Part shown: piece after piece, positions 20,998 to 37,024 of the stretch
Position numbering within the stretch: position 1 is the first letter of the stretch
Layout of the letters: every line of letters starts with the position of its first letter
Origin: Alphaproteobacteria bacterium
Lineage (GTDB): Bacteria; Pseudomonadota; Alphaproteobacteria; Micropepsales; Micropepsaceae
Assembly (NCBI GenBank): GCA_016783965.1
Contig: JADHVO010000002.1
Coordinates: forward strand, 434,001-498,000
Reading direction: 5' to 3'
DNA length: 64,000 bases
The notes under the pieces: model-generated
What the model saw: only the letters and a program-made list of their open reading frames with translations
The model's database searches: none
Told to the model about the DNA's origin: nothing
Program-made: the position numbers and the translations under genes

Positions 20998-21651
20998 TCA
21001 AGTCCCCTCGTTTTCCAGCCCAAAAGGAAGCTCCTCAGTGAGCCTGTGGGCCCGCAGCTGTTCGATGATTCGCTCGCGCAGCCGGATCAGCGCGGCTCTC
21101 CACAGGCTGTAGTGGGCACGCGCAACGATCACTTCCACCATGTCATCGCCCACCGAGCGGAGCATGTGATAGCCCCAGCGCCGCGTGTTGTCGGTGAACA
21201 CCCGGCGTCCGCGTTCGAAGAGGTAGATCGGTTCAAGGATCGGATCGGGTCGGCGCCGGTGGAACGCGCTGCTAAACACCAGGTTGCGCACATGCACGAC
21301 CTCGCTGGCGTCGGGTCTGACCGCGTTCCAGCTGGCGTTGTTGTTCTCTTGCCGGAGTTCGCAGTCGAACAGACCGCGCGCGTAGCGCATCTCGATCTCT
21401 TCTTGGGACCGCCGCCGTTCCACCGGATCGAGCGCCATCACCGCGCGGTGGATGATGTGGGCGTCCGGCGCCGCGGCGAAGCCAGATCTCGGGCTGCTGT
21501 CGACAGGATCGAGACCGAAGTCCAGCGATGCCAGCTTCGGCAGCGCATAGGTCCGCGACGCCTCGACGGGCACGCCCTCCGGCAACGCGACGTGGACCAT
21601 CTGGTCGCGATAGGCCCATTGCAACGCCTGCTCGATCGAGACGCGCTTCAT
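20998..21651 (-). CDS. Conserved phage hypothetical protein
   Basis: The start ATG at 21651 overlaps the upstream stop by ATGA, giving 217 residues starting MKRVSIEQALQWAYRDQMVH. The central part has PDAHIIHRAVMALDPVERRR and a Trp/Tyr-rich helix (YSLWRAALIRLRERIIEQLR). I recognise this as a protein type found beside replication genes in alphaproteobacterial prophages but know no function for it. Location at the end of the early operon, just before the packaging genes, would allow a late-gene regulator or replication accessory role; this is speculative. Confidence 0.7.
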   Translation of the reverse strand: MKRVSIEQALQWAYRDQMVHVALPEGVPVEASRTYALPKLASLDFGLDPVDSSPRSGFAAAPDAHIIHRAVMALDPVERRRSQEEIEMRYARGLFDCELRQENNNASWNAVRPDASEVVHVRNLVFSSAFHRRRPDPILEPIYLFERGRRVFTDNTRRWGYHMLRSVGDDMVEVIVARAHYSLWRAALIRLRERIIEQLRAHRLTEELPFGLENEGT

Positions 21652-22976
21652 GCCGCACCGCCTTCGACCGCGATCACCAGCGCGTCCACGTCCCAACCTT
21701 CCGCGCCGGCCAACCGCCGCAGCGTCGTCTGGCGATAGGTCTTCTCGATCCAGTTCGCCTCGAACGGTCGCTGCACCAGCAGGCGCCTTGGCGGCCCGGC
21801 ATCGACGAACACGCCGCCGAACCACGCTCGTGCCTCGACATCGCGCAGGCCTGCGCGCAGGAGCGCCGCCTGGTCGATCGGCGGCCAACGCTCCGCCATC
21901 GCCCCGCGCCAGGCCACAACCGCGGGATCGAGCGCCGTCTCCGGCTGCTCGAACCGGTGCCAATGCCGCGAACGCAGGAACGTCGTCGGCCCGATCGGCG
22001 TCGGCGCGCGCGAGCCATTACCCTGCCGCAGCCGCCACGCGAAATACGCCCGCACCGCCGCGCACAGCTGCGCCGCATCCGGCCGTTCGCCCGCGGTTTC
22101 CGTCCAAAGCAACCATGTCCGGTCCAGCCGTGCCCCAACCCAGGCCTCACCGCCAGCCGCCACAAACGCCATAAAATCAGCGTCTTGCGTCCACTCACCC
22201 GCATCAGCCAACCCATCGCGGGCACCCCCCGAAAGGGGGGTAAGGGGGGTTATCTCTTCCTTTTCCTCTCCCTTTAAGAGAGTTTTCCGGTGGAACGGAT
22301 CGTCCGGAGGCGGCTTTTCGTCGTCCGTTCCGGAGGAACGCACCTTATATGTGTCGCCTTCTCCGTCCCGTTCCGGCGGAAAGAGGAGATTTTCCCCCGG
22401 AACACCCTTGCGACCGCGCCCGTTGCGGCGCTCCAGAAACACCGACCAGCCAGCCGCTGGCACCATCTGATCGAGCACATCGAGGTGCCGTGCCGTCGCC
22501 GGATAGTTCAGCCGCGTGAAGCCAGGCACCGTCGGCTCGGGTTTCAGCGCGGTGACGCCCTGCGCCTTCACCTTCGCGTTCGCCTTTCGGATGCGATCGC
22601 ATTCCGCGGCATGGAAGTAGCGCACACGCTCCAGCCACACGGGCCACGCGATCTCGCACACCACGGCGTGATAGAGCCGTCCGTTGTTGCAGGCGATGAA
22701 GCCGCGCAGCGCGCCGGCGCGCAGCTTGCGCCACACGTCTACCGCGAAGCCATAGCCAGCGAGCTTGGCCAAGTTGACGTCGTCGCTGGGCACCGAGCCT
22801 GCCGGCACCTGGTGCCAGCTCGCCGCCCACAGCATCGTGCCAGCGCGATATTCGTCGCCAGTGACCGTGGCCGCGAACGTCGACTCGCGCAGCCGCACGA
22901 CGTCGAGCGGCATGGTCTTGAATCCCGTGAGGTCGACATCGTTCGGAATCGGAGGCAACGGAAGAGTGGTGCTCAA
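21648..22976 (-). CDS. DUF1376-domain replication-type protein
   Basis: The 442-residue protein starts at TTG (22976); the next in-frame ATG is at 22913 (MPLDVVRLRESTFAA). Residues ~20-120 resemble DUF1376 (WAASWHQVPAGSVPSDD, then ACNNGRLYHAVVCEIAW), a domain of YdaU-like phage proteins linked to replication initiation. A basic, low-complexity linker follows. The C-terminal third has a Trp-rich region ending TYRQTTLRRLAGAEGWDVDA. Role in phage DNA replication is inferred from the domain and position. Confidence 0.7.
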   Translation of the reverse strand: MSTTLPLPPIPNDVDLTGFKTMPLDVVRLRESTFAATVTGDEYRAGTMLWAASWHQVPAGSVPSDDVNLAKLAGYGFAVDVWRKLRAGALRGFIACNNGRLYHAVVCEIAWPVWLERVRYFHAAECDRIRKANAKVKAQGVTALKPEPTVPGFTRLNYPATARHLDVLDQMVPAAGWSVFLERRNGRGRKGVPGENLLFPPERDGEGDTYKVRSSGTDDEKPPPDDPFHRKTLLKGEEKEEITPLTPLSGGARDGLADAGEWTQDADFMAFVAAGGEAWVGARLDRTWLLWTETAGERPDAAQLCAAVRAYFAWRLRQGNGSRAPTPIGPTTFLRSRHWHRFEQPETALDPAVVAWRGAMAERWPPIDQAALLRAGLRDVEARAWFGGVFVDAGPPRRLLVQRPFEANWIEKTYRQTTLRRLAGAEGWDVDALVIAVEGGAA

Positions 22977-22996
22977 GGTGACGGCGCTCGCTGTGC

Positions 22997-23002
22997 TATG
23001 GT
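22997..23002 (+). promoter_or_regulatory. -10 element TATGGT of a leaderless-type promoter
   Basis: TATGGT, within GTGCTATGGT, ends six bases before the ATG at 23009, so transcription would begin at or next to the start codon. No clear -35 box is seen. The same GTGCTA core precedes the genes at 38108 (minus) and near 38180 (plus). Confidence 0.45.
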
Positions 23003-23008
23003 CGCCGC

Positions 23009-23695
23009 ATGCAGAAGAACGATCTTTACCTGCTCGCTGCGGTGATCCTGGTCTGGGGCTGCTTCGAGATCGTGGCTCTGAAGCTCGCAGGCGCTACGGG
23101 GAGCGACGTGGCGGCTTGGGTTCAGGCAATAGGAACGGTCGGCGCCGTGGGTGCGGCCATTTACTGGGCGCGACGTGAGGAGCACGGCCGCGCCGAGAAG
23201 GTCGAACGCACGGCCACGCTGATTGTCGCCGCCCAGACAGCCGATTGGTTGAGGACGACTGTCGAGCGCATCGCGGAAACCCGGCTGGCCATCGCCTCGA
23301 ACGGTCACCAGGGGCAAATGCTCCTGGATGTCGCGGAATTCGCGTTCACCAACAATTTGGCCATCGTTGCAGACCTCACGCCGCGGCTCGCGGTCGTCGC
23401 TTTGCGCCTGAAGGAAACACGAGAGCGGCTGAACAGCCTGATGATGGGTGACTTCGATGGCGAGGATGAGGCCATCAATTTCGCATTCCGCGAGGTCCCG
23501 AAACTCTTTGCGCGCGTGCGGGAGTTCTATTGGCAGATCGCTGCCGCTGCACACATCCCGGGTGACCCCAATCAGAGATGGGAGATTGATCAGATTGTAG
23601 CGGCCTGGAATTCGACTTGCTCCCAGGGCTCCCCGCAGCTTCTCGGGAGCGCGGAAGAGTTGGACAGGCTGCTCAGCATCAGTATGCGGGTTTAG
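23009..23695 (+). CDS. Membrane-anchored protein of unknown function, oriented against the operon
   Basis: The 228-residue protein has an N-terminal hydrophobic segment (DLYLLAAVILVWGCFEIVAL), a second one (WVQAIGTVGAVGAAIYWARR), then a helical cytoplasmic region. It is the only plus-strand gene within the minus-strand early block and carries its own promoter-like -10 box with no leader. It ends two bases before the end of the methylase gene. This is the pattern of a moron gene expressed in the lysogen; superinfection exclusion or other phage defence is possible but unproven. The family is not recognised. Confidence 0.75.
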   Translation: MQKNDLYLLAAVILVWGCFEIVALKLAGATGSDVAAWVQAIGTVGAVGAAIYWARREEHGRAEKVERTATLIVAAQTADWLRTTVERIAETRLAIASNGHQGQMLLDVAEFAFTNNLAIVADLTPRLAVVALRLKETRERLNSLMMGDFDGEDEAINFAFREVPKLFARVREFYWQIAAAAHIPGDPNQRWEIDQIVAAWNSTCSQGSPQLLGSAEELDRLLSISMRV

Positions 23696-23697
23696 GG

Positions 23698-24645
23698 TCA
23701 TACCGCCTCAGCCACCTCAAGCGGCAGATCGTCCTGCCGTTCGGTCAGCGCGCGCCGGCGCTCGGCGCCGAGGCGGTCCCAGCAGTGCGGGTTCAGCCAC
23801 AGCACCTCGGTGCGATCGCGCGCGCCGTCGGCATGCGCCGGGATCTCGTCGCGATGCCATGCCCTCAGCCGCTCGTCATAGAGCGGATGCGGATAGCCGC
23901 TCAGCACCACGCTGCCTTCGAGCCTGTCAAGGAAGTCCAGCAGCTTCACATGCGCCGCATCGTCCATCTCGTGCGCATAGCCGCGATACTGCGCATCGTA
24001 AGGGTTGCCATGGGCGCGGGTGGCGTGCACGTAGGGCGGATCGACGTAATGGAGGGTCTCCGGACCATCCATCTGCGCCATCACCTCGCAGGCGTCGCGA
24101 TTCTCCACGATCACGCCGCGCAGGCGCTCGATCATCGCCGGCACGCAGTCCGGATAGTTGCGCCAGTCCATCGCCGGCGTCGTGCCCGAGCGGGTCGAGT
24201 TGTTGCGGAATCCCGTCGGCACCCGCGCATGCGCGTTCGATCCGAAGCCCATGTACGACAGCACGATCAGCCGTCGTGCACGCTCCACCGGTTCGTCGCA
24301 CAGGTCGTAGGCCGCGGTCAGTTCATCACGCGCGAAGGGCGTGAGTTCGAGCTGGGCGATCAGCCTGGCGGCCAGCGCATCGTCGCGCAGCACGCGGAAC
24401 ACGTTGACGATCTCGCCGTCCAGATCGTTCCAGACTTCGGCATGGCTGCGCGGCTTACGCATCAGCACGCTCCCGCCGCCCCCGAACGGCTCGACGTAGC
24501 AGCGATGCTTCGGGAAGCGTGCGATGATCTTGTGCGCCAGCTTCCACTTGCCGCCGTACCAGCGGACGATGGGCCGCGTCGGTGCGGCAGCCGCGCTGAC
24601 TGCCCCCCCCCTACGCGATCTGCGGCCCGGCCGGTTCAGGGTCAT
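23698..24645 (-). CDS. DNA N6-adenine methyltransferase, D12/Dam class
   Basis: The start at 24645 overlaps the upstream stop by ATGA and gives 315 residues. Motif I-like WYGGKWKLAHKII is followed by FPKHRCYVEPFGGGGSVLM, and the catalytic motif IV appears as HYVDPPYVHA. This order is that of Dam-type (D12) enzymes that methylate adenine in short palindromes. The target sequence cannot be read from the protein. It may protect phage DNA from host nucleases or alter transcription. A run of nine G residues near the start codon is a possible slippage spot. Confidence 0.9.
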   Translation of the reverse strand: MTLNRPGRRSRRGGAVSAAAAPTRPIVRWYGGKWKLAHKIIARFPKHRCYVEPFGGGGSVLMRKPRSHAEVWNDLDGEIVNVFRVLRDDALAARLIAQLELTPFARDELTAAYDLCDEPVERARRLIVLSYMGFGSNAHARVPTGFRNNSTRSGTTPAMDWRNYPDCVPAMIERLRGVIVENRDACEVMAQMDGPETLHYVDPPYVHATRAHGNPYDAQYRGYAHEMDDAAHVKLLDFLDRLEGSVVLSGYPHPLYDERLRAWHRDEIPAHADGARDRTEVLWLNPHCWDRLGAERRRALTERQDDLPLEVAEAV

Positions 24646-25337
24646 GCTGCCGCCCCTTCCAGCACCTGCACCACCCATCGGCAGATGCGCTCGGGCGCTT
24701 CGCCGCGCACGCCGTCCCATGCGCCGACGAAAATCCGGGCCGTTGCCGCGCGCCTCGGTGTGAAAGCTAACCTGGCCGGTCGGGAGCTCGACATAGAGCA
24801 CTTGCTGGTGGAATTCCTGCGCCGGATCGGTCGCCCAGCCCCAGATGAGCCCGATCGCTGCGCCATGTTCGAGCAGCACCGCACCCCATCGAGGTTATCC
24901 AGCGACCATTGCTTGCGCCGGTAAGCCTCGCGCTTCTGCGATCCACGGCGATAATCCTTGGCCCGCTCGGAACACTTGCACGCCCGGAACAAGTTCGAAG
25001 CGACGAACCCAACCGGTCCCAGCGCATTGAGCCGTTGGTAAAGTGCCTTCGTCTTGTCGCCATTCGATCCCAGATAGACGCCCATCACCTCGTCGTAGAG
25101 CGTGCGCAAATAACCAAGGCTTTGAGCAATCTGCTCGGGACCTTCGTGCCGCCAATATGGCACCACGACCCCGCGCACCGTAGAGCCATCCGTCAGGCTC
25201 GCCCACCCGATCGAGGCGTCATAGGCGAGCACCCGCTTGCCCATGTCGACGCCGTCGATCAGCACGCCGATCCGCGCGCAGAGGAAGGCGTTCGCCTTGG
25301 TCGCCCGCAGGGCCTGCGGCAGTGGTTGCGCGGTCAT
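24642..25337 (-). CDS. Phage protein of unknown function with two compensating frameshifts
   Basis: The open frame encodes 231 residues starting MTAQPLPQALRATKANAFLC, with ATGA overlaps at both ends. Between about 24730 and 24885 the plausible protein lies in another frame: it reads LLEHGAAIGLIWGW and LPTGQVSFHTEARGNGPDF, far more protein-like than the zero-frame Arg/Ser-rich stretch. Adding one G to the G4 run at 24884-24887 and removing one T from the T4 run at 24730-24733 restores one smooth protein. So the middle is either mis-sequenced or truly altered. No function is known. Confidence 0.65.
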   Translation of the reverse strand: MTAQPLPQALRATKANAFLCARIGVLIDGVDMGKRVLAYDASIGWASLTDGSTVRGVVVPYWRHEGPEQIAQSLGYLRTLYDEVMGVYLGSNGDKTKALYQRLNALGPVGFVASNLFRACKCSERAKDYRRGSQKREAYRRKQWSLDNLDGVRCCSNMAQRSGSSGAGRPIRRRNSTSKCSMSSSRPARLAFTPRRAATARIFVGAWDGVRGEAPERICRWVVQVLEGAAA

Positions 25338-25510
25338 GCCAGCACCGCCGGATTGTGGACGGTGATGGAGACGCCGCGTTCCAGTTCCTGCTTGCGCGCC
25401 AGCGCGGAGTCGATCTTCTCCTGGTCGCCGCGCGCCGCCGCGCGGTCATAGTCGCGCACGGCCCACATATAGGCCTGCGCGAATTCGCGATGCAGGTTGC
25501 GCTCGCTCAT
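25334..25510 (-). CDS. Small hypothetical protein (58 aa)
   Basis: The frame from ATG 25510 to TGA 25334 encodes MSERNLHREFAQAYMWAVRD followed by a charged helix and ends VHNPAVLA. It overlaps the next gene's start by ATGA and begins four bases after the ParB-like gene ends, so it fits the operon spacing. It is mostly helical, with no recognised domain. Confidence 0.65.
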   Translation of the reverse strand: MSERNLHREFAQAYMWAVRDYDRAAARGDQEKIDSALARKQELERGVSITVHNPAVLA

Positions 25511-25514
25511 GCCG

Positions 25515-26387
25515 CTATCGCCCCGCCATCAACCGCGACATCGGCACACCCTTGGTGCGCGCGGCGGCGGCAATCCGCGCCTCGGCGAGTTCCATGAAGT
25601 TCTTCCAGTCGGTGCCCCCGCGCGTGGCGCGCCGCGAAGCGGTCTCGTTCACCAGCTTCGCCAAGCCCCCCCCGGTGCGCGTCAGCGCCTCACCGACGCT
25701 GGCCGCATCACGATGCCATTCCGGATGTTTTGGCGCCAGCTCGCACATCCCACGCACGGCCACGCCGGCGAGACCGACCATCGGATCGGCCGCACGCAGC
25801 GCCATCAGCGCGGTGGTCAGCACCTCGCCACCATGCATCTTGAAGCAGCGACGCACCGCCGACAGCGCGCAAGTCTCGCCCGCCTTCAGCAGCTCCAGTG
25901 GCTTCGGGCTCGGCGCCATCACCACGCCGGCTTCGGCACAGGCCTTGACGATGCCGACGGCTTCGAGATCTCCGCCGGCGACCGCGGCGCGGAAGCTCTG
26001 GAGCGGATTGATGCGTGTGGTGTTGTGGTTGATCGCCGCGAAGGCGCGGGCCTCCTCGGCCAGCGAGCGCTCCAGCACCAGGCACGGCACGCTGTCGATG
26101 CCGCCATGGCACAGCGCCGCGGTGGCGCGGTGCTGCCCGTCGATCACCGCATAGACGTTGCGCGAGCGCTTGGCGACGTCGAGTACGCCGAACTTTGCCC
26201 AGGAGAACTCTTCCACCATGCGCCGGATGTTGGCTTTGCCGGAATCGAGAATGGCGCGCTGATAGATCGGGTCGACGTAGAGGTGCTTGAGCGGAAGCCA
26301 CACCAGTTCGCCCTTCGCACCGATGTCGCGCGACGGCACCGGCTTGACCGAGAACGTGAGCGTCTGGAGTGCCAGCAGTTCGCTCAT
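25515..26387 (-). CDS. ParB/Srx-fold domain protein
   Basis: The ATG at 26387 overlaps the preceding small gene by ATGA and gives 290 residues. Residues ~30-110 contain VDPIYQRAILDSGKANIRRM, then FGVLDVAKRSRNVYAVIDGQ and HRATAALCHGG. This is the ParB N-terminal (nuclease-like) motif set, with a DGQHR signature. No ParA gene is near, so a plasmid-type partition role is unlikely. Related phage proteins are suspected DNA-binding or CTP/nucleotide-using factors. It is one of two ParB-domain proteins in this operon. Confidence 0.75.
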   Translation of the reverse strand: MSELLALQTLTFSVKPVPSRDIGAKGELVWLPLKHLYVDPIYQRAILDSGKANIRRMVEEFSWAKFGVLDVAKRSRNVYAVIDGQHRATAALCHGGIDSVPCLVLERSLAEEARAFAAINHNTTRINPLQSFRAAVAGGDLEAVGIVKACAEAGVVMAPSPKPLELLKAGETCALSAVRRCFKMHGGEVLTTALMALRAADPMVGLAGVAVRGMCELAPKHPEWHRDAASVGEALTRTGGGLAKLVNETASRRATRGGTDWKNFMELAEARIAAAARTKGVPMSRLMAGR

Positions 26388-26482
26388 CCGAACACCGCCT
26401 CGCATGCCAGCGCGAACCCGATGCCGCCCAGCCACGCCAGGCAAGCCCAGAACATGCGGGAACGGAGGAGGACCGCGATCAC
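26384..26482 (-). CDS. Tiny membrane peptide (32 aa)
   Basis: A GTG at 26482 overlaps the methyltransferase stop as GTGA, and the stop overlaps the next start as ATGA. The 32-residue product is almost one transmembrane segment (SRMFWACLAWLGGIGFALAC). Coupling at both ends strongly suggests that it is translated. Function is unknown. Confidence 0.6.
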   Translation of the reverse strand: MIAVLLRSRMFWACLAWLGGIGFALACEAVFG

Positions 26483-28473
26483 GCAATTGCTCCCGGAAGT
26501 GAAACGGCGATAGCGATTGGCTGCACCCAGATCGCTTCGTTCGAAAGATCGAAGGTCTGGCCGGTCCATGCGCCGAGCAGCGCTTTTCCCATGACGCCGG
26601 CGATGGCCTGCGCCGACGGCGGCGGCACCGCGTTACCGATGCGCTCGCGCCAGGCGCTGTCGCTGAGGCCAAACAATTCAAGATGCTCTTCGGGGTCGAC
26701 CAAGCCCTGGAGTGCGGCCAGTTCCAGCGTCGTCAGAGGCCGGTGCCAGGTGTTGTCGAGCGCACGGATGATGCAGACGAGGTTCTCGCTAGACGCAGGC
26801 ATCCGTGCCGCAGCGCTCGCGGCGCCATCATCACCTGGCGCGCGCGGATCGGCGACGCTATTGAAGCCATTGTTATTCTTCGCATGGCCCGAAACCGCCA
26901 GCGATATGTCGTTCCAGTCCAGCACACCGTAGTGGCCGCCAGTCTGGTAGCTGGCCTTGCCGTCTCTGAACGCCCGCGGGCGCACGTCGTTGATCCGGTC
27001 ATCTGCCACTGCGAACGCGCCAGTGCCCGTGGTGCTGGCGGCGATCACCGCGCCCGTTGCTTCATCCATGGCGGTGACGCGGTATTTCGTCTGCTTGTAA
27101 CCATCATCACGCGGGCCAGAACGCGGATCGGCCACACCGACGCCGCTGGCCGGTCCGCCCGGCCCTGCAACGGCCGGGTAATGTTTTGTCCAATCGACGA
27201 TGCGGAAAATGTTGTTGAACGGCTTGCGGTCCACGATGCGTGGATCGGCGATGGCGTTCGGACCCGCACCTGGCGCCATATTGCGACGGATGACAGGCGC
27301 GCTCTGCGACCAGCCGCGAACGCCGAGCTGCACCGACTTGTGGTGGCCGTCGATCCGCGCATCCGCGATTGAGAAGGCACCGTTGGTCGGGAAGCTTTCG
27401 CCCTGGACGGTGCCACTGTGCTCGTTCCACTCGCGCACGCCCAGCGTGGACGCGCGATCGCGACCGGAGATCCTGGGATCGGCAACCGCATTCGCGCCGC
27501 TGGATGGTTGGTTCTTCGAAGTGACGGTGTTGGCATGATCGGTCCAATGACCGACGCCATACGCGCCGTTGAACCATTCGCCGTCGGGCGCGATGCCGTA
27601 GTCGCGGAGCTGGCCGTTCTCCACCGCCAACCGGTTGAGCGAGCGCCAATCGCTCCCCGCTTCGACGAGCGCGAGCCGGAGCCACGTCTTCCACTGTAGC
27701 GCCGGCATGCGGTGCATCGGGCCGGCCGGCGTCTCCCATGGTCCTGGCATTGGCAGGCGTTCCAGCACCTCGCCCACGCCACGCAGGCGATGCTTGGTCG
27801 GCTGGTAGAGGAAGTTCGGCACTTTCTTAGTATGCCGCGCCACCAGCAGAAGGCGCTTTCGGCTCTGCGCCAGGTCGCCGATCTCTCCGCAGTCGTGCAC
27901 CGTCTCGGCGACCGCGTAGTCATAGGCGCGGAAGAGCTGAACGATCTCGTCGAGGAAGTGTCGGCCACGCGTGCCGATGCGTGGCACGTTCTCGAAAACG
28001 AACAGTTCGACCGGGTCGTCCTTGTAGGCTTCGAGTGCCAGCCACACGCCGCGCAGGGTGAGCCGGTTCAGCGCCTGGTATTTGAGCGTCTTGCTCTTAT
28101 TCTCCGACAACAGGCCGGAGAAGCCCTTGCACGGCGCCGACAGGAAAATGATGTGCGGCCGCTCGAAACTGAAGGCGCGCCGCACGTCGTCCGGGCCGGC
28201 CTGTGACCAACCGGGCGGCGGTTCCTTGCCGTGGAACGCGCGGTACTGGTCGAGGTCAAACAGGTCCAGCAGCGTGCCTGCGACACCGGCCAGCGTCGCG
28301 AAGTCCGCTATTGCGCCTGGATCGTTGTCGATGCCACCTAGACAACGAAAGCGCGCGCGCAGGTTGCCAACGCGCGCGTCGCCACGGTTGAACCCGCGCG
28401 CGCCACCGCCCAAACCACAGAAGAAATGCGCGTGGCGAATCTCGATGTTGGTGACGGGGTTATGAACTGTCAC
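26479..28473 (-). CDS. DNA cytosine-5 methyltransferase with six internal repeats
   Basis: The 664-residue enzyme starts at GTG 28473 (GTGA overlap). C5-methyltransferase motifs appear in order: HFFCGLGGGARGF (I, residues 16-28), SAPCKGFSG with the catalytic Cys115 (IV), FENVP (VI, 160-164), QSRKRLLLVA (VIII, 203-212) and GNAVPPP (X, 613-619). Motif IV reads PCK rather than the usual PCQ. Residues 305-544 hold six copies of a ~30-residue unit (separate entry) where one target-recognition/motif IX region is expected. The target sequence is unknown. Confidence 0.92.
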   Translation of the reverse strand: MTVHNPVTNIEIRHAHFFCGLGGGARGFNRGDARVGNLRARFRCLGGIDNDPGAIADFATLAGVAGTLLDLFDLDQYRAFHGKEPPPGWSQAGPDDVRRAFSFERPHIIFLSAPCKGFSGLLSENKSKTLKYQALNRLTLRGVWLALEAYKDDPVELFVFENVPRIGTRGRHFLDEIVQLFRAYDYAVAETVHDCGEIGDLAQSRKRLLLVARHTKKVPNFLYQPTKHRLRGVGEVLERLPMPGPWETPAGPMHRMPALQWKTWLRLALVEAGSDWRSLNRLAVENGQLRDYGIAPDGEWFNGAYGVGHWTDHANTVTSKNQPSSGANAVADPRISGRDRASTLGVREWNEHSGTVQGESFPTNGAFSIADARIDGHHKSVQLGVRGWSQSAPVIRRNMAPGAGPNAIADPRIVDRKPFNNIFRIVDWTKHYPAVAGPGGPASGVGVADPRSGPRDDGYKQTKYRVTAMDEATGAVIAASTTGTGAFAVADDRINDVRPRAFRDGKASYQTGGHYGVLDWNDISLAVSGHAKNNNGFNSVADPRAPGDDGAASAAARMPASSENLVCIIRALDNTWHRPLTTLELAALQGLVDPEEHLELFGLSDSAWRERIGNAVPPPSAQAIAGVMGKALLGAWTGQTFDLSNEAIWVQPIAIAVSLPGAIA
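26842..27561 (-). repeat. Six tandem motif-IX-like repeats in the cytosine methyltransferase
   Basis: Residues 305-334, 344-373, 383-412, 423-451, 464-493 and 515-544 share the pattern Y/LGVxxW, then V about eight residues on, a Gly, and A-I/V-ADPR. The period is about 39-51 residues. Each unit resembles the Trp...Thr-Val...Gly...ADPR stretch near motif IX of typical C5 methyltransferases. The copies differ a lot from one another, so they are old. Confidence 0.85.
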
Positions 28474-30365: not shown

Positions 30366-30703
30366 GCAGCACTCCTGTCTTCGAGATCGTCAAGCACGCT
30401 GTCGATCAGACCGTCATCCACGACGGTTTCGACGATGCGGCGAGCGAGCGAGTTGGGATGAATTCCGCGGCGCGCGGCGTGTGGTGCCAGCGCCCGCAAC
30501 ACATCTTGCGAGAAGAGCACCGTGCGCTGGGTCTCCTGGATTTGTGTTCGGCGCTTGGAGGCGCTGTGCTCCAGCGCCGTGACCGTTCCGCCATCGATAC
30601 CGATGCGGCGTCCGATTTCGGCGGTTCCGAGGCCCTGCGCACGCAACGCCAGAACAGCGTCTGTGCGCGATGCGTAACCCAAAGTCGGCTTGCGCGGTGG
30701 CAT
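30362..30703 (-). CDS. Small HTH DNA-binding protein
   Basis: The ATG at 30703 overlaps the methyltransferase stop (TGATG), giving 113 residues. A helix-turn-helix is likely at about residues 13-40 (DAVLALRAQGLGTAEIGRRI, then GIDGGTVTAL), followed by a basic stretch and a C-terminal helix pair (ALAPHAARRGIHPNSLARRI). The second half resembles ribbon-helix-helix-like tails. A regulator role in the early operon is probable; no family is recognised. Confidence 0.65.
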   Translation of the reverse strand: MPPRKPTLGYASRTDAVLALRAQGLGTAEIGRRIGIDGGTVTALEHSASKRRTQIQETQRTVLFSQDVLRALAPHAARRGIHPNSLARRIVETVVDDGLIDSVLDDLEDRSAA

Positions 30704-31365
30704 CACTGCCTCCCGCGCGGCGGCTGCCGCAGGATGCGGGGCGAGCCGGTGTGGCCCTGCTCCCAGATGAACCAGCAGAAATCGATGGTGCCGCTATCGG
30801 TCTTGGGACCGGTGTAGCCCTCGCGATGCATCGTCTTCCAACGATGGTTCGGCAGCACGATGCGCGCGAACGGAATGCGCGTGGACGTCCAGATCGCGCG
30901 CTTAATGCCGTCGCCGAACGCGTCGATCAGGTGGAACGGCGCCAGATAACGCAGGCGCAGGAGCATCGCGACGTAATCGAAGCGCTGCGTCGCTGCCAGG
31001 ATAAACTCGTCGTCCAGGTTGAACGGAGGGTTCGATACGAACGCGCGCTGCGCAGCCCTGGGCGGCAAGGGCAGCCGTGCGAAGGCCTTGGGATCGAGGA
31101 AATCGGCGACGATGCCGTTCGGGCAGCCGCGATCAATGACGTCCGATGCCACCACGTCGAAGCCCGCGCGCCGCAGAGGCCTGACCAGGTCACCGGCGCC
31201 GCACGCGCCCTCGCAGATCGCACGATAGCGTTGCAGAGCGGCCCGCTCGATCGACAGCAGGCAGTCGATCGCTTCCGGCCGCGAACGATGGAAATCGTGT
31301 GTCGCATCCTTCGGCGTGTCGCGCCGCTCATGCTCACTGTTCGGCTTGCGCCGCGCTAACGCCAT
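30703..31365 (-). CDS. Putative DNA N6-adenine methyltransferase (SAM-dependent)
   Basis: The 220-residue protein has a SAM-binding motif (ICEGACGAGDLVRPLRRAGF, residues ~50-69), an acidic strand end (VVASDV) and the catalytic motif SNPPFNLDD near 111-119. NPPF is the form used by N6-adenine methyltransferases. It is short and lacks an obvious target-recognition domain. With the D12 enzyme and the C5 enzyme it is the third DNA methyltransferase in this operon. It could also modify another substrate, though the NPPF motif favours DNA or RNA adenine. Confidence 0.75.
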   Translation of the reverse strand: MALARRKPNSEHERRDTPKDATHDFHRSRPEAIDCLLSIERAALQRYRAICEGACGAGDLVRPLRRAGFDVVASDVIDRGCPNGIVADFLDPKAFARLPLPPRAAQRAFVSNPPFNLDDEFILAATQRFDYVAMLLRLRYLAPFHLIDAFGDGIKRAIWTSTRIPFARIVLPNHRWKTMHREGYTGPKTDSGTIDFCWFIWEQGHTGSPRILRQPPRGRQ

Positions 31366-31366
31366 C

Positions 31367-31925
31367 TCAGAACTCCGGAATGGCGATGTGGACGGCGGCC
31401 GAGCGTTCGCGCCAGTGCTCCCAGCGCTTCACGTTGGCGACCGAGGCAGGATTGGCGCGCGACTTCGCCAGGTGGAATTCGCAGTAGGAGTGCCCTTCCA
31501 GCTGCTCGTTGCCGCAGTAGTGGAAGTCGGTCTCGCCCACGTCGCCGATCGGCCAACGGCAGTCGCGCGCCTTCAGCGCCATGGTCGAGACCAACGATCC
31601 GTCGGCGGTCATCCGCGCGGCCGGCTCGGGGATCGGCGTCGGCGCCTCCACTGGCGCGGGCACAACCCGTTTGCGCAGCGGCCGGACATTGCCGCCCGTT
31701 GGATGATCCGTGGCGCGCGTCATGGTGCCGCCGCCGAAATGCAATCCGAGGCGCGATGCCTTGCCGATGACGGCGTTGCGGGACAGCCCGCCCCCCTAGA
31801 GCGCGCGCAACTTCACTGGCGCTAAGGCCTTCGGCCACAAGCGAGCGCAGCTGCTCGACGCGGTCACCGCTCCAGTCGAAGCGATGGAGATCACGGCCCA
31901 CCACCGAAGGTTCTGCCCAGCCCAT
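31367..31925 (-). pseudogene. GcrA-like cell cycle regulator, frameshifted
   Basis: The N-terminal frame (ATG 31925) encodes WSGDRVEQLRSLVAEGLSAS-type sequence, the GcrA HTH. After the G6 run at 31791-31796 the matching continuation lies in another frame: removing one G gives RNAVIGKASRLGL, the GcrA signature, and then DCRWPIGDVGETDFHYCGNE with YCEFHLAKSR, the GcrA C-terminal domain. GcrA binds sigma70-RNA polymerase at methylated GANTC promoters in Alphaproteobacteria. Here the gene is split by one extra base: a sequencing error, a broken gene or slippage-controlled expression. Confidence 0.85.
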
Positions 31926-31944
31926 TTCCAGCCCCGTTGCCGCG

Positions 31945-32289
31945 TCACAGCGCGGCGTAGACGTGTCCCTTGTTGCCCCGGCGCCGCGGTTGCGGCTCCG
32001 GCCTGAAGTCCGATTGCAGCGCCTCGCGCAGCCCGATCAGTTCCCTCGCGATCGCAACGCGACGCTCGGCCGTCGCCTCCAGCGCCTCGCGCAGGAGCGC
32101 CCTGCCCGCTCGCGCCAGGTCGCCCTTGCGCTGCCGGCCATGTGTCTCCCAGTTCGTCTTCGGGATCTGCTCCGCCTCACGCGCGAACATCTGCCGCGCC
32201 ACCGGCTGGTCGATCTGCGCTGCCGCGGCGCCGAATACCAACAACAGCCGACGCGCAGGATTGCGCTTGAGGTCGTGGCGGCGCTTCAT
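31945..32289 (-). CDS. Hypothetical basic protein (114 aa)
   Basis: The frame starts at ATG 32289, overlapping the upstream stop by ATGA. The protein (MKRRHDLKRNPARRLLLVFG) is rich in Arg and helix-forming residues, with a long helix around RALLREALEATAERRVAIAR. No motif is recognised. Operon position is the only context. Confidence 0.6.
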   Translation of the reverse strand: MKRRHDLKRNPARRLLLVFGAAAAQIDQPVARQMFAREAEQIPKTNWETHGRQRKGDLARAGRALLREALEATAERRVAIARELIGLREALQSDFRPEPQPRRRGNKGHVYAAL

Positions 32290-32591
32290 GGCGCACCGCC
32301 CTTCGCGCCGGCGAGGCGTCCGTCGATCTCGTCGGCGGCATCGCGCAGCGACTTCGCCTGCTCGCCCAGCGCATCGGTCATCTTGCCGAAGTCGTAGGTC
32401 GCGCCGTTGTTGCCGAAGCGCTCTTCGTAACGCCGTGCTGCGCTCGACAACGCGATGTTCACATAGGCCTTGCGGTCCATCGCGATGTCAGCCTCGCGCG
32501 AGCGCACGGTCTCCAGCGGCTCCCGCACCTCGCTGCCATCCATGCGGCGCAGCGGGTCGAGCGTCGGCGCCGCCGGCACGTTGCCGCTCAT
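32286..32591 (-). CDS. Hypothetical charged helical protein (101 aa)
   Basis: The 101-residue protein starts MSGNVPAAPTLDPLRRMDGS and is joined by ATGA overlaps to genes on both sides. It contains a predicted helical hairpin (DRKAYVNIALSSAARRYEER and TDALGEQAKSLRDAADEIDG). No family is recognised. Confidence 0.6.
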   Translation of the reverse strand: MSGNVPAAPTLDPLRRMDGSEVREPLETVRSREADIAMDRKAYVNIALSSAARRYEERFGNNGATYDFGKMTDALGEQAKSLRDAADEIDGRLAGAKGGAP

Positions 32592-32746
32592 GTGCGCCTC
32601 CCGAAAAGTGGCCGGACGCTAGAGGACGCCCGGCCGAGTTCAGGGAGGAAACGCCCAAGCGGTAGTCTGCCTGGTGATGTCCGCGGGGGGGAAGCCGCGA
32701 GGACCTGGTGACGCTGCTCGCGCAGCGAATGGGTAAGGCGCGTCAT
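32588..32746 (-). CDS. Small basic protein (52 aa), coupled at both ends
   Basis: The ATG at 32746 overlaps the upstream stop (ATGA), and the TGA at 32588 overlaps the next start (ATGA). The product starts MTRLTHSLREQRHQVLAASP and is rich in Arg, Pro and Leu. All three frames of this stretch are open for most of its length, and an inverted repeat (GGCCGG at 32611-32616 with CCGGCC at 32630-32635) lies inside it, so the DNA may act at another level too. Confidence 0.5.
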   Translation of the reverse strand: MTRLTHSLREQRHQVLAASPPRTSPGRLPLGRFLPELGRASSSVRPLFGRRT

Positions 32747-33225
32747 GCGCCACCGTCTTCGATCACGTCACGCGCGGCGTGGCGCAGAGCGATCAGCGAC
32801 TCGATCAGCGCGTCGGTCTCGCGCATCACCATCGCGGCGTTGGCCTTGGTGAGATGGCCGTGCGCGACATCTTCCGCCGCCGTCGACAGCAGCGCGCCGG
32901 TCTCCTGCGTGATGCGGCCGAGCACGATCGCGGGCGGCAAGTTCGACGGCGCCGTGATCTTGTCGATGACGAGACCCTGGCTGAGCGCCATGTGCGTCGT
33001 GACGATCGGCTGGCCGCAATGCTTCTCAAGCTGCGCGATCAGCGCGCCCGACATGTTGCGCTCGGGCTGGTCGGGATCGACGTAGCGGCCGATCACCGCC
33101 GTCGACAGGCCGCTGATCTTTGCGACCGCCTCGAGGCCGCCGCAGGCCTGCACCAGCGCCGAGATCGCCGTCGTCAGCGATCCATACAGCCGCGGCTTCA
33201 TGTAGCTGCCCGCCGCCATGCTCAT
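32743..33225 (-). CDS. Putative phage regulatory protein (CII-like position)
   Basis: The 160-residue protein starts MSMAAGSYMKPRLYGSLTTA. Residues ~18-50 hold an HTH-like segment (QACGGLEAVAKISGLSTAVI, then GRYVDP), followed by AQLEKHCGQPIVTTHMAL and a helical C-terminal half. As the second gene after cro, it sits where lambdoid phages encode CII or similar switch proteins. The family is not certain. Its start overlaps the cro stop by ATGA. Confidence 0.65.
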   Translation of the reverse strand: MSMAAGSYMKPRLYGSLTTAISALVQACGGLEAVAKISGLSTAVIGRYVDPDQPERNMSGALIAQLEKHCGQPIVTTHMALSQGLVIDKITAPSNLPPAIVLGRITQETGALLSTAAEDVAHGHLTKANAAMVMRETDALIESLIALRHAARDVIEDGGA

Positions 33226-33536
33226 GTGCGCACCGCCCTAGCGCGTTGCTGCGGACGGAGAGCCGCGCAGCGACGTTCACCGTGCCGCGCGCGCACATGA
33301 TCGGCATGGTCCTCAGGCGGGTAGATGTCAGGGCGAAACTGTTGACGACCGATCTTCTGGCCCTTTGCCTCGGTGGCGCGCTCCAGCGGAATGCACCATT
33401 CCGCAGGGACCTTCTTCGAGGTGTTAAAGACGTAGTTGACCGCCGGCTGCGTCACACCGACGACCGCGGCAATCGCCGCTTCCGTTCCGCCGAGGATGGT
33501 TTTGGCCCTGCGCAGGGCATCGATGCCGGTGTCCAT
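33222..33536 (-). CDS. Cro-like repressor (YdaS-type HTH)
   Basis: The N-terminal ~60 residues (ALRRAKTILGGTEAAIAAVV, then GVTQPAVNYVFNTSKKVP) form a Cro/YdaS-type HTH, and a basic Arg-rich tail follows. The start is set at ATG 33536 (104 residues) because the predicted transcription start lies near 33539; an ATG at 33545 sits directly at the -10 box. It is divergent from the cI gene across three operator-like sites and heads the early operon. It probably turns off repressor synthesis and tunes early transcription. Confidence 0.78.
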   Translation of the reverse strand: MDTGIDALRRAKTILGGTEAAIAAVVGVTQPAVNYVFNTSKKVPAEWCIPLERATEAKGQKIGRQQFRPDIYPPEDHADHVRARHGERRCAALRPQQRARAVRT

Positions 33537-33545
33537 AACCGGCAT

Positions 33546-33573
33546 CTAATAAGATTTCTTATTGGGTTGTCAA
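33546..33573 (-). promoter_or_regulatory. Early (cro) promoter, near-leaderless
   Basis: On the minus strand a perfect TTGACA (33573-33568) is followed after 16 bases by TATTAG (33551-33546). Transcription would start near 33539, only about three bases before the ATG at 33536. The inverted repeat O1 lies between the two boxes and over the -10, so a bound repressor would block this promoter. Confidence 0.7.
33548..33563. promoter_or_regulatory. Operator O1
   Basis: AATAAG-ATTT-CTTATT is a perfect inverted repeat with a 4-base centre. It overlaps the -10 box of the cro promoter. It is the best of three similar sites spaced 24-25 bp apart. Confidence 0.75.
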
Positions 33574-33586
33574 TAAGAAGACTTTT
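33572..33586. promoter_or_regulatory. Operator O2
   Basis: AATAAG-AAGA-CTTTT matches O1 with one mismatch in the right arm. Its centre is 24 bp from that of O1, and it abuts the -35 box of the cro promoter. Confidence 0.65.
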
Positions 33587-33597
33587 CGGGCGCGTGT

Positions 33598-33611
33598 ATA
33601 AGTTATTTTAT
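33598..33611. promoter_or_regulatory. Operator O3
   Basis: ATAAG-TTAT-TTTAT matches the consensus ATAAG-N4-CTTAT with one mismatch. Its centre is 25 bp from that of O2, and it overlaps the -10 box (TATAAT) of the repressor promoter. Confidence 0.6.
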
Positions 33612-33614
33612 AAT
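33609..33614 (+). promoter_or_regulatory. -10 box of the cI (repressor) promoter
   Basis: A perfect TATAAT lies ten bases before the cI ATG at 33625, so the leader would be about four bases. No good -35 box is present at the right distance. This fits a maintenance promoter that needs activation by repressor bound at the neighbouring operator, as in lambda PRM. Confidence 0.6.
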
Positions 33615-33624
33615 CTCTAACCCT

Positions 33625-34347
33625 ATGACGACGTTTGGAAACAGGGTCCGTATCGCCCGCGAAACTGCGGGAATGAGCCAAGCTCAGCTGGCCAAATTGC
33701 TGGGAATAACCCAGCCCGCGCTTCATCAGATTGAGACGGGGCCGGCCACGAGATCGAAGCACATCACCGGAATTGCTCGGCACACCGGGGCTACCACCGA
33801 TTGGTTAGAGTCGGAAAAAGGCGCGCCGCCAATGCCGGGTGACGCCCCAGGGATTGAGGGCGCCGACGATCGCGTGGTTGACCCACGTGTCAGCACGGCC
33901 TTGCACGAAAACGAAACCCTCTTTCGTGATGCGATGCCGCGCGATATTCCGGTCTATGGCAGCGGCCAAGGCGGTTCAGACGGCTCCTTCGAATTCAACA
34001 CCGGCGACCCGATCGACTTTGTTCGCCGCCCTCCCCGCCTGGCCGGCATGCGAGACGCCTATGCGATCTATCTTACTGGCGAATCGATGGTGCCATGGCG
34101 CGAAGAGGGCCAGCCTGTCTATGCCGTCCCCAGTCTGCCTGTTCGCGTGATGGACTATGTGGTGCTCCAGCTGAAGCCGCGGCACCCGGGCGATGCGCCG
34201 TTCGCCTATGTAAAGCGGCTCCTCAAACGCACAGGGACGCAGCTTATCGTCGAACAATTCAACCCGCCCAAGAAGCTCTCTTTCCCGATGGACAAGGTCC
34301 ACACTGTCCATCGAATCATGGACTGGAGCGATCTGCTCGGACTGTGA
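33625..34347 (+). CDS. Phage repressor (cI-type, XRE HTH plus S24 peptidase)
   Basis: The 240-residue protein has an XRE HTH at residues ~5-60 (RIARETAGMSQAQLAKLLGI). A linker follows, then an S24/LexA-like peptidase domain with the nucleophile Ser154 in GESMVPW and the general-base Lys197 in AYVKRLL. It should hold the prophage silent by binding the three sites upstream. The usual Ala-Gly or Cys-Gly cleavage pair about 35 residues before the Ser is not obvious, so self-cleavage during the SOS response is uncertain. Confidence 0.92.
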   Translation: MTTFGNRVRIARETAGMSQAQLAKLLGITQPALHQIETGPATRSKHITGIARHTGATTDWLESEKGAPPMPGDAPGIEGADDRVVDPRVSTALHENETLFRDAMPRDIPVYGSGQGGSDGSFEFNTGDPIDFVRRPPRLAGMRDAYAIYLTGESMVPWREEGQPVYAVPSLPVRVMDYVVLQLKPRHPGDAPFAYVKRLLKRTGTQLIVEQFNPPKKLSFPMDKVHTVHRIMDWSDLLGL

Positions 34348-34560: not shown

Positions 34561-34586
34561 TCCGGCGACGCTAATAATAATTTCTA

Positions 34587-34616
34587 TTGACGTTCATAAG
34601 TAATCTTATTTATCGT
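34587..34616 (+). promoter_or_regulatory. Rightward early promoter with operator
   Basis: TTGACG (34587-34592) is followed after 18 bases by TATCGT (34611-34616). In the spacer lies ATAAG-TAAT-CTTAT (34596-34609), a perfect copy of the cro/cI operator consensus. A weaker copy (ATAAT-AATT-TCTAT, 34574-34587) lies 22 bp upstream. The repressor should therefore shut this operon in the lysogen. Confidence 0.7.
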
Positions 34617-34645
34617 GCCCCTTATCGAACAAAGGGAGCACGGGC

Positions 34646-34963
34646 ATGCGTTACACCGGTTTCAATTTTCAGAGCCCGCAGGCGTTTCGCCGTGACAGCC
34701 GCGATGCTGCCCGCGCGCGCCGGCAAACCGCCGAGCGCGAACTCGCCCGCGAGACCGCGCGCGTCGCCGCGCTCGGCAATGGCGAGATCCGCAAGCTGAT
34801 GGCGGCGGTGATCGTCGAGAAGGCGCTCGACGGCCGCGAGGTACTGCGCATCGACTTCACCCGCAAGGGTATCCCGAACGATCGCATCGATGCCAACCTC
34901 GCCGAAGCCGCCGCGATCGCGCGCAAGGCAAGCCCCAAGGTCGACCAGATCGGGGCGTACTGA
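34646..34963 (+). CDS. Hypothetical charged protein (105 aa)
   Basis: The first gene of the rightward operon, with GGGAG upstream of ATG 34646. The protein (MRYTGFNFQSPQAFRRDSRD) has a long Arg/Glu/Ala helix and a small beta segment (GREVLRIDFTRKGIPNDRID). It probably binds DNA or RNA judging by charge, but no domain is recognised. Its stop overlaps the next start as TGATG. Confidence 0.65.
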   Translation: MRYTGFNFQSPQAFRRDSRDAARARRQTAERELARETARVAALGNGEIRKLMAAVIVEKALDGREVLRIDFTRKGIPNDRIDANLAEAAAIARKASPKVDQIGAY

Positions 34964-35756: not shown

Positions 35757-35884
35757 CCGCCCGCGGAGTCGTCTGGTTCCGGCGCAACCGCGCGTTCCAC
35801 ATCGTGTCGCCGCGCGGCTGGTCGTTCCTCGGCTGCATCGCGTTCTGGAGCGCCATCGCGCTCGCCGTCGCGCATTTCCTGTGA
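35753..35884 (+). CDS. Tiny membrane protein (43 aa)
   Basis: The ATG at 35753 overlaps the upstream stop by ATGA. A basic N-terminus (MTARGVVWFRRNRAFHIVSP) precedes one transmembrane segment (LGCIAFWSAIALAVAHFL). Function is unknown; coupling supports expression. Confidence 0.6.
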   Translation: MTARGVVWFRRNRAFHIVSPRGWSFLGCIAFWSAIALAVAHFL

Positions 35885-35892
35885 GAGGTCGC

Positions 35893-36174
35893 ATGAAGCG
35901 CCAGCAAACGCTCAACGCCGCCCGTAAGGCCGTCGGTTCGCGCCACCGGCGCTACGGCACGCCCACCGCGAACTTCGAGGCGATCGCACGCCTATGGGGC
36001 GCGCACCTCACGACCAAACTCGGCACGCCGGTCGAGATCACGCCAACCGACGTCGCGCTGATGTTCGTTTACACCAAGGGCGCGCGCCTCCAGCACGACC
36101 AGGCGCATGCCGACAGCTGGATCGACATCGCCGGCTATGCCGCCTGCGGCGCCGAAGCGGCGGAGGCGAAGTGA
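35893..36174 (+). CDS. DUF6378 phage protein
   Basis: The 93-residue protein has GAGAGG upstream of ATG 35893. The HRRYGTPTANFEAIARLWGA segment, EITPTDVALMFVYTKGARLQ and the C-terminal HADSWIDIAGYAACG are the conserved features of DUF6378, a small phage-encoded domain of unknown function. Its stop overlaps the next start. Confidence 0.82.
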   Translation: MKRQQTLNAARKAVGSRHRRYGTPTANFEAIARLWGAHLTTKLGTPVEITPTDVALMFVYTKGARLQHDQAHADSWIDIAGYAACGAEAAEAK

Positions 36175-36767
36175 TGCTCGACGCCGCCATGCGCCCGCAG
36201 GCCACGCTGCGCGAGGTGCAGCAGGTCACTGCCGACTTCTGCCGCGTCAGCGTCGCCGAGTTACTCTCGCAGGATCGCGCCCGCTGCGTGGCGCGTCCGC
36301 GCCAGATGGCGATGCAGATGTGCCGCGAGTTCACCAATCTCTCGCTGCCGCAGATCGGGCGCCAGTTCGGCAACCGCGACCACACGACTGTCCTGCACGC
36401 CTCGCGCCGCATGGCGCAGCTGGAGAACGAAGACCCACTGATCCGCGACGAGCTCGGCCAGCTGCGCCGCTTCCTGGGCGACCGGTTCGCCACGGCGCAT
36501 GACGGCGACGCGCGCGCCATCGCGCGCCGCCAGGAGCTCGCTGCGGCCAGAGCAATCGCGCACTTCGCGCGGCGTCTGGGCGGCAACGCGCCGCCGCTGT
36601 CCGATGACATCGACATCAGCACGCCCTATGCCGTCGAGCGCGCCGCGGCGCTAGCCGTTGCCGCGTTTCTCATTCACGTCGGGCGCCAGCCCATCCGCGA
36701 CGTGACAGGCATCCGCGCGCCCTCGCGCGAGGAAGTGTTGCGTCGGTTGTTTGTGGGCACCGCATGA
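36174..36767 (+). CDS. Stand-alone DnaA domain IV protein
   Basis: The ATG at 36174 overlaps the upstream stop (TGATG) and gives 197 residues. Residues ~13-90 match the C-terminal DNA-binding domain of DnaA: FCRVSVAELLSQDRARCVAR, RQMAMQMCREFTNLSLPQIG and the signature GNRDHTTVLHASRRM. No AAA+ ATPase region is present. A free domain IV could bind DnaA boxes at the phage or host origin or in promoters. The remaining ~100 residues are helical and unrecognised. Confidence 0.88.
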   Translation: MLDAAMRPQATLREVQQVTADFCRVSVAELLSQDRARCVARPRQMAMQMCREFTNLSLPQIGRQFGNRDHTTVLHASRRMAQLENEDPLIRDELGQLRRFLGDRFATAHDGDARAIARRQELAAARAIAHFARRLGGNAPPLSDDIDISTPYAVERAAALAVAAFLIHVGRQPIRDVTGIRAPSREEVLRRLFVGTA

Positions 36768-37024
36768 CCGACTTCGAGACATTCCCCCTTCAGCTACTGA
36801 ATGCGACGCATGATGCCGCTCTGTTCAGTGTGCCGGGACGAGGCCCGACTTGGGTTCCACTGGTGGCGCTGCATGAAGACGATCGCGGTGACCTCATTCG
36901 GGAGAATCGTGGGCAGAGGTTCACCGTGCGCATCGACGCTGCCACGGCGAAACAGAAGGGGCTTACGCCAGGTCGCGTCGATGGTGGCGCGTCTGGCGAC
37001 TTGTTCGAAGGACAAGCCCCATGA
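36764..37024 (+). CDS. Hypothetical acidic protein (86 aa)
   Basis: The 86-residue product starts MTDFETFPLQLLNATHDAAL and is linked by ATGA overlaps to both neighbours. It looks like a small beta protein (PTWVPLVALHEDDRGDLIRE) with a Gly/Asp-rich tail. It is not recognised. Confidence 0.6.
   Translation: MTDFETFPLQLLNATHDAALFSVPGRGPTWVPLVALHEDDRGDLIRENRGQRFTVRIDAATAKQKGLTPGRVDGGASGDLFEGQAP

Follow-up and report, generated by a model that had tools for sequence, protein, structure and literature searches.

Does a temperate phage that carries parts of a bacterial cell-cycle circuit use them on its host, on itself, or not as a circuit at all? The question is raised by a prophage in an alphaproteobacterium of the Micropepsaceae, placed by its gene content in the part up to position 39848 of the 64,000-nucleotide (nt) stretch analysed here (the window; G000:C7:434001-498000 in a 4.29-Mb genome of alphaproteobacterial type). 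For this prophage, the first-pass annotation had listed a GcrA-like gene, a free DnaA DNA-binding domain and three DNA methyltransferases (D12 adenine, NPPF adenine and C5 cytosine), and had read them as a toolkit that mimics the host circuit of DnaA, GcrA and the adenine methyltransferase CcrM, and that may tie phage replication or promoters to this circuit, or hijack it. We tentatively favour a host-directed action, in which phage early genes would act on the cell-cycle circuit of the host through functional steps predicted from sequence. One host cell-cycle promoter has sites for all three activities (GANTC methylation, GcrA and DnaA-box binding), whereas the likely early control gaps of the phage lack them.

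On the phage side, only one DnaA box (TTATCCACA) with at most one mismatch is found in the window, at 5032, in the tail-fibre gene. Boxes with at most two mismatches are at chance level (60 against 55.6 expected), and no DnaA-box cluster is seen in the phage early region. GANTC occurs 84 times in the window against 294 expected, 57 of these sites lying within 1-39900. It is absent from eight of ten intergenic gaps, including the likely early control gaps 20786-20997, 32592-32742, 33546-33624 and 34561-34645; one site each is found in two gaps internal to operons, 25338-25514 and 35757-35871. In contrast, the host ccrM promoter (L184 1233-1423; contig C12 of the host genome G000, upstream of ccrM at 370621) contains eight GANTC sites over 200 nt; a DnaA box without mismatch is positioned at -176 of ccrM. 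In the genus, 30 loci were examined (L414-L443) of 41 matches in 46 genomes. The ccrM promoters of all 30 have 6-8 GANTC per 200 nt, compared to 0.22 in downstream sequence. A DnaA box with no more than one mismatch lies within 300 nt in 21 of the 30, compared to 0.10 per 300 nt loci-wide. Across the genus, the ccrM promoter has the features of a dense, conserved, methylation-responsive promoter.

Because the phage has chance-level boxes and early gaps without GANTC while the host ccrM promoter is full, an action on the host is favoured over a phage that times its own genes by the host circuit, through GANTC methylation, GcrA and DnaA at phage promoters. Such timing, which has a parallel in a GcrA-dependent prophage-like operon of Brevundimonas subvibrioides (PMC7987155), is very improbable. 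In addition to the counts above, a study of CtrA control of phages reports that predicted GcrA or DnaA sites show no asymmetry in the phage genomes covered there (PMC9437464). Hence the suggestion that the phage ties its own replication or promoters to the circuit finds no backing at this locus.

The genes concerned lie in two divergent operons, on either side of a CI-like repressor:

30703-31365, minus: NPPF adenine methyltransferase, candidate GANTC enzyme (phrog_799, E 1.4e-32; no Pfam match)
31356-31925, minus: GcrA-like, start of the DNA-binding domain (PF07750 profile 2-66), with a frame break near 31790
31367-31744, minus: GcrA-like, sigma-interacting domain in the other frame (PF07750 profile 87-141, E 9.6e-14)
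31945-32289, minus: conserved small protein between CII and GcrA (homologues in L118, L046, L006 and L061)
32743-33225, minus: CII-like activator (PF06892, phrog_101)
33222-33545, minus: Cro/YdaS-like regulator (profile match), opening the pR-like early operon
33549-33562, unstranded: operator-like palindrome ATAAGN4CTTAT, exact, between CI and Cro
33573-33586, unstranded: operator-like palindrome, one mismatch, between CI and Cro
33598-33611, unstranded: operator-like palindrome, one mismatch, between CI and Cro
33625-34347, plus: CI-like repressor (HTH_3; phrog_4)
34587-34616, plus: sigma70-like promoter TTGACG-18-TATCGT before the DnaA-domain operon, with an exact operator at 34596-34609 inside
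34646-34963, plus: first gene of the DnaA-domain (pL-like) operon (homologues in L005, L077 and L046)
36171-36767, plus: free DnaA domain IV (Bac_DnaA_C, residues 12-102) with a C-terminal extension of unknown fold

The palindrome, with up to two mismatches allowed, occurs nine times in the window (2.67 expected; 0 of 100 shuffles reached nine). Beyond the early region, one copy has one mismatch (8243) and four have two. The search for a promoter-like site before the DnaA-domain operon returned one, against 0.8 expected in shuffles. All six relatives examined (L005, L006, L032, L046, L061 and L077) have a palindrome of their own in the same divergent layout, with copies 5' of CI and further copies some 1.1-1.5 kb away, past CI and before the DnaA-side genes. 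These patterns were picked from repeats without a shuffle control and with L086 and L162 not included; CI was located by profile in L005, L006, L046, L061 and L077 and was not looked up for L032. A few looser matches are found elsewhere in L061 and L077. Thus, in the window and in the six relatives, matching operator-like repeats stand at both early promoters, as in a lambda-like switch. The DnaA-domain operon and the GcrA-methyltransferase operon share these palindromes, and both are therefore predicted to be early operons under repressor control. In a lambda pL/pR arrangement with the repressor presumably bound at these repeats, neither operon should be expressed in the lysogen, and both should be switched on early in lytic growth.

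Would the phage methyltransferase write the host mark? None of the three prophage methyltransferases belongs to the CcrM family; the window has no match to the CcrM profile, and the only PF01555 (N6_N4) match in the genome is the host CcrM-type enzyme, at C12:370699. Phage enzymes of the NPPY/F/W type, which are unrelated to CcrM, are reported to methylate GANTC (Decewicz 2017, PMC5537653). Protection from HinfI was full for Phi3LM21_p21 and partial for Phi2LM21_p21 (section 3.4 of that paper, which cites earlier work for the GANTC specificity of PhiLM21_p027). The PHROG family phrog_799 holds these three enzymes together with the NPPF enzyme of the window, which recovers them by tblastn in phi2LM21 (E 2e-11), phi3LM21 (2e-7) and phiLM21 (4e-6), in alignments running through the NPP motif and the C-terminal half. 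In a profile-profile comparison, where the second profile comprised the same three and three further phage enzymes, the probability was 99.9% and E 9.2e-36. This kinship with reported GANTC enzymes makes it likely that the 30703-31365 enzyme is GANTC-specific.

The C5 and D12 enzymes look ordinary and not circuit-like. A placement of the C5 enzyme in the relaxed 'CC' group of Phi2LM21_p23 was rejected (BLASTP E 0.30). Its internal repeats mostly end in VADPR or similar, and their number varies among the window gene (26479-28473), L126 10822-13260 and L171 15402-17822.

The DnaA-domain gene (36171-36767) codes for a 198-residue protein with a lone Bac_DnaA_C domain (PF08299, E 5.8e-25) beginning at residue 12. 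No AAA+ ATPase domain III was detected in this open reading frame (ORF), in which PF08299 is the only domain found. The best match among solved structures is 1J1V, domain IV of E. coli DnaA (E 2.4e-24), which we take to be a complex with a DnaA box. All nine positions checked (R399, R407, Q408, R432, D433, H434, T435, T436 and H439), presumably base or backbone contacts to the box, are identical to E. coli, as would befit a domain IV with its box-reading residues. Among 25 aligned domains, of which 19 came from GcrA-anchored loci and had not been selected by a DnaA motif, identity to E. coli is retained in 25 at R407, 23 at D433, 22 at R432, 21 at H434, 19 at T435, 19 at T436, 18 at R399, 13 at Q408 and 11 at H439. 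PHROGs assigns no family to the protein. Related genes are present in phage records (AmM-1, RHph_N28_2 and Bradyrhizobium prophages), and the host has its own DnaA at C7:291772. A single-sequence structure prediction of the phage protein was set aside (mean pLDDT, the predicted local distance difference test score, of 41.8).

Free DnaA domains turn up in other settings as well. Many of the 96 genomes of the host order contain a diverged ORF of this kind of about 100-190 residues (mostly E 1e-10 to 1e-17; for example G000:C11:84934-85134). On the viral contig of L114, four successive DnaA-domain ORFs (14157-16070) are located downstream of a GcrA gene. Phage-labelled records H1-H5 and H11-H15 hold apparent bacterial dnaA genes, with about 50% identity in those labelled Campylobacter or Salmonella and 34% in those labelled Staphylococcus, Listeria or Enterococcus; they are probably host sequence.

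Do these genes belong together in other phages, as a circuit would lead one to expect? Viral-contig loci were collected by six anchors and scored with iterated profiles, keeping the best 80 of 332, 89 and 491 for the DnaA, GcrA and C5 scans, respectively. In non-redundant viral loci, two genes on one strand were called adjacent when their domains were less than 500 nt apart. GcrA and DnaA_C are adjacent in 11 of 28 loci (2.1 expected from random placement), DnaA_C and an adenine methyltransferase in 14/35 (2.9 expected), and GcrA and an adenine methyltransferase, either phrog_799 or N6_N4, in 13/36 (3.2 expected), with GcrA upstream in 12 of these 13. In the window, GcrA adjoins the NPPF methyltransferase, with 113 nt between the domains and the methyltransferase ATG one base after the TGA of the second GcrA frame, whereas the DnaA domain belongs to the other operon. 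Since early genes cluster, random placement sets a low bar; hence GcrA and DnaA_C were also counted against eight other phage genes, which gave 16 adjacent pairs in 99 (GcrA 11/50, DnaA_C 5/49). The three circuit pairs reach 38 of 99 (Fisher p 0.0007, a rough value as pairs share loci).

Co-occurrence within a locus points the same way against one baseline. GcrA is found in 18/80 DnaA-anchored loci and DnaA_C in 15/80 GcrA-anchored loci, clearly above the C5-anchored loci (1/80 and 2/80; p 3e-5 for GcrA and 0.001 for DnaA_C). Baselines for GcrA and DnaA_C were 2/44 and 5/44 in ParB1-anchored loci, and 10/58 and 7/58 in NPPF-anchored loci; GcrA in DnaA-anchored versus ParB1-anchored loci gives p 0.01. 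A CII-anchored baseline of nine loci only (GcrA 9/9, DnaA_C 0/9) was unusable. Both GcrA and DnaA_C are present in 35 of 350 viral loci, some of which overlap or share one contig. Among these 35, phrog_799 is found in 5 and an N6_N4 enzyme in 15, the latter compared to 11/65 GcrA-only (p 0.005), 14/80 C5 (p 0.005) and 18/62 DnaA-only loci (p 0.12). None of the N6_N4 enzymes near GcrA/DnaA pairs has the CcrM C-terminal extension, and they were counted as adenine methyltransferases, not as CcrM. In the 96 genomes of the host order, a second GcrA and a lone DnaA_C share a contig, in the same divergent layout, in three (the host G000, G027 and G042); the contigs of the eight other second-GcrA matches lack a lone DnaA_C. 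The complete trio, to which C5 and D12 do not belong, is uncommon and does not amount to a fixed module. In other phages, GcrA, DnaA_C and adenine methyltransferases do recur as neighbours beyond the level of control genes, while C5 loci mostly lack GcrA and DnaA_C.

The same loci bear on a different account, in which all of these are ordinary early genes: the methyltransferases would counter restriction, the DnaA domain would serve phage replication or transcription at non-canonical sites, GcrA would be a decaying acquisition, and the resemblance to the host circuit would merely follow from the uptake of alphaproteobacterial genes by phages. We regard this account as a serious possibility, although one we doubt. 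It fits the DnaA-like gene near methyltransferase and replication genes in phiLM21, AmM-1 and RHph_N28_2, the many C5 relatives in viral contigs (491, the best 80 mostly without GcrA and DnaA_C) and the broken frame of GcrA. It also fits the box content of the 63 lone-DnaA_C loci, which slightly exceeds expectation (98 boxes versus 78.1, or 1.25 times). However, this is no richer than in C5 loci (1.22), though richer than in GcrA-only (0.98) and ParB1 loci (0.87), and three boxes within 400 nt are found in none of the 63. The lack of a box cluster in the phage early region and the excess of adjacent circuit pairs over control genes further argue against it.

What remains of GcrA in this prophage? 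The gene is not one open frame: profile positions 2-66 are in ORF 31356-31925 and positions 87-141 in ORF 31367-31744, with the same split in a whole-genome search. The DNA-binding and sigma-interacting domains are thus not joined in one protein. The conserved sigma-interacting domain is present, with its CRWPIGD motif aligned. The frame breaks at a G-rich stretch near 31790, within the DNA-binding domain; the L118 and L020 homologues match the first frame before the break and the second frame after it. Homologues with an unbroken frame are known. A programmed frameshift was considered and rejected: L170 is the one further case in the set of a single gene divided between two frames, and its break is at a different position, which makes decay or assembly error the likelier origin. 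The host has a separate GcrA of its own at C1:358033.

The split gene could instead work as a free sigma-interacting domain (SID), binding sigma70 without DNA as a competitor of host GcrA or as an anti-GcrA factor. Such a role is improbable. The sigma-binding frame is open and conserved, and the GcrA SID (residues 108-173) binds sigma region 2 in a separate crystal complex (5yix; PMC7403470). In the GcrA-like ORFs of seven other loci (L016, L017, L041, L100, L179, L180 and L182), the profile matches a sigma-interacting but no DNA-binding domain; these are possibly minimal sigma70-binding proteins. Against this role, no clear ribosome-binding site is visible by eye before the internal starts, relatives of the same group (L118, L005, L006 and L077) keep the DNA-binding part, and the break may be decay or assembly error.

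Returning to an action on the host, several results weigh against it or narrow it. The GcrA copy is broken, by what may be decay or assembly error. The NPPF enzyme is only 26-31% identical to the three reported GANTC enzymes, and its specificity may differ. The DnaA box before ccrM is exact in only 4 of the 30 genus loci and its place varies; moreover, the host genome has 12 exact boxes against 15 for a reversed control pattern, so that the box before ccrM could be luck. Adjacency varies among the control genes, with high values for GcrA-CII (6/14) and DnaA-ParB2 (3/5). GcrA is not more frequent in loci anchored by DnaA than in those anchored by NPPF (18/80 versus 10/58, p 0.52), nor is DnaA_C more frequent in GcrA-anchored than in NPPF-anchored (p 0.35) or ParB1-anchored loci (p 0.32). 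The two are unassociated within NPPF-anchored (both in 1/58) and ParB1-anchored loci (0/44). The phrog_799 enzyme, found in 10/80 DnaA-anchored and 17/44 ParB1 loci, is less frequent in GcrA-anchored (3/80) than in C5 loci (9/80), and hence is not enriched with GcrA as such. Finally, a profile search found GcrA or DnaA_C in 0 of 32 Rhizobiales/Hyphomicrobiales genome contigs with a ParB1 relative, which counts against a fixed module.

In Caulobacter, the host CcrM acts in a short part of the cell cycle. We propose that the locus comprises the early genes of a temperate phage of the lambda kind, whose CI and Cro would act on the matching operators of a divergent pair of early promoters. One operon would give Cro, CII, GcrA, a GANTC-type adenine methyltransferase, ParB-like proteins, C5 and D12, and the other the free DnaA-box-binding domain. 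On induction or infection, the phage methyltransferase would methylate GANTC outside the short CcrM-active part of the cycle. The DnaA domain, devoid of the ATPase part, would occupy host DnaA boxes at the origin and at promoters such as that of ccrM, while GcrA would read the GANTC mark at sigma70 promoters. As the gene is broken in this copy, this reader arm is probably lost here or cut to a sigma-binding fragment. Replication and cell-cycle transcription would thereby be loosened from host control. Gene content, homologies, the operator-like repeats, the frame break and the absence of target sites from the phage control regions can be read directly from the sequence; repressor binding, enzyme specificity, DnaA-box binding, host targets and the cell-cycle effect are inferred.

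How much of this is known from other phages? The Sinorhizobium phages phiLM21, phi2LM21 and phi3LM21 (PMC5537653) have, like the window, a phrog_799 methyltransferase downstream of CI/Cro; unlike it, no GcrA is annotated in the stretches examined. In phi2LM21, a C5 methylase also follows two genes on, although the C5 enzymes are unrelated at the BLASTP level. A 104-residue gene of phiLM21 carries the annotation DnaA, but its similarity is weak (39 residues, E 8e-4), and it sits on the same side as the methyltransferase instead of in a divergent operon. A gene-function table of phiLM21-like prophages lists a GcrA regulator (5) and DnaA (1) (PMC12429752). A phage-borne GcrA is also known as gp222 of Caulobacter phage phiCbK, where it was proposed to alter the host replicative state (Gill 2012, PMC3556154); the phiCbK genome is about 205-216 kb, its records give no DnaA-domain match, and the GcrA of the window is, unlike gp222, broken. 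In Aurantimonas phage AmM-1, a phrog_799 methyltransferase near CI is directly followed by a gene annotated as a DnaA C-terminal domain; in contrast to the window, no GcrA is annotated or matched, and the domain belongs to a 396-residue protein within the methyltransferase operon. To our knowledge, the E. coli prophage protein YfdR is not a DnaA domain. Like the phage gene proposed here, it acts on DnaA-dependent initiation; unlike it, YfdR binds the DnaA protein, according to the title of PMC4776307. Among the titles and abstract openings listed from open-access papers, none describes a phage that groups GcrA with a DnaA domain and a methyltransferase. The parts are known from other phages; the combination and its regulation are new.

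The remaining genes of the prophage are as follows:

21648-22976, minus: DUF1376 replication protein (phrog_22470)
23698-24879, minus: D12 adenine methyltransferase (Pfam E 3.6e-17; phrog_56)
25515-26681, minus: second ParB-like protein (phrog_1033; DUF6551 slightly under cut-off)
26479-28473, minus: C5 cytosine methyltransferase with internal repeats (E 2e-14)
28470-30365, minus: ParB-like protein (phrog_7783; phrog_1033)
37021-37506, plus: outer-membrane beta-barrel protein, last in the DnaA-domain run of genes (profile match)
38259-39848, plus: serine integrase (profile match)

The prophage is further marked by minus-strand structural genes (tail fibre, tape measure, capsid, protease, portal, large and small terminase), by profile matches to CI-like, CII-like and YdaS/Cro-like regulators, and by the serine integrase. 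Its left end, past the tail-fibre gene, was looked for and not found. The 30300-33800 stretch has no DNA-level relatives among 50,697 phage records. Repeats at 20700-25600 were considered as a phage origin and rejected, since they contain no convincing iterons. The beta-barrel gene that closes the DnaA-domain run could change the cell surface.

Overall, the gene list of the first-pass annotation stands by profiles for the free DnaA domain and the D12, NPPF and C5 enzymes, all of which are open frames, and has to be amended for GcrA. Mimicry of the circuit gains from the kinship of the NPPF enzyme with GANTC enzymes, from the conserved box-reading residues and from neighbours beyond controls, and loses from the broken GcrA frame and from D12 and C5, which are not circuit-like. 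A toolkit of five genes is not upheld, with C5 and D12 ordinary in appearance, GcrA broken and the trio no fixed module. It is somewhat unlikely, as a general statement, that alphaproteobacterial temperate phages carry mix-and-match cell-cycle parts (a GANTC writer, a GcrA reader and a DnaA-box binder) that are switched on together by the repressor and would act on host sites, for example the ccrM promoter and the origin, uncoupling replication and methylation from the cell cycle of the host. Phage GcrA and phage GANTC methyltransferases had been described separately, each with a suggested mimicry or alteration of host control. The placement of both, and of a DnaA domain IV, in predicted early operons under repressor control and as recurring neighbours in diverse phages, together with sites at a host promoter and not in the phage gaps, makes phage control of the cell cycle testable.

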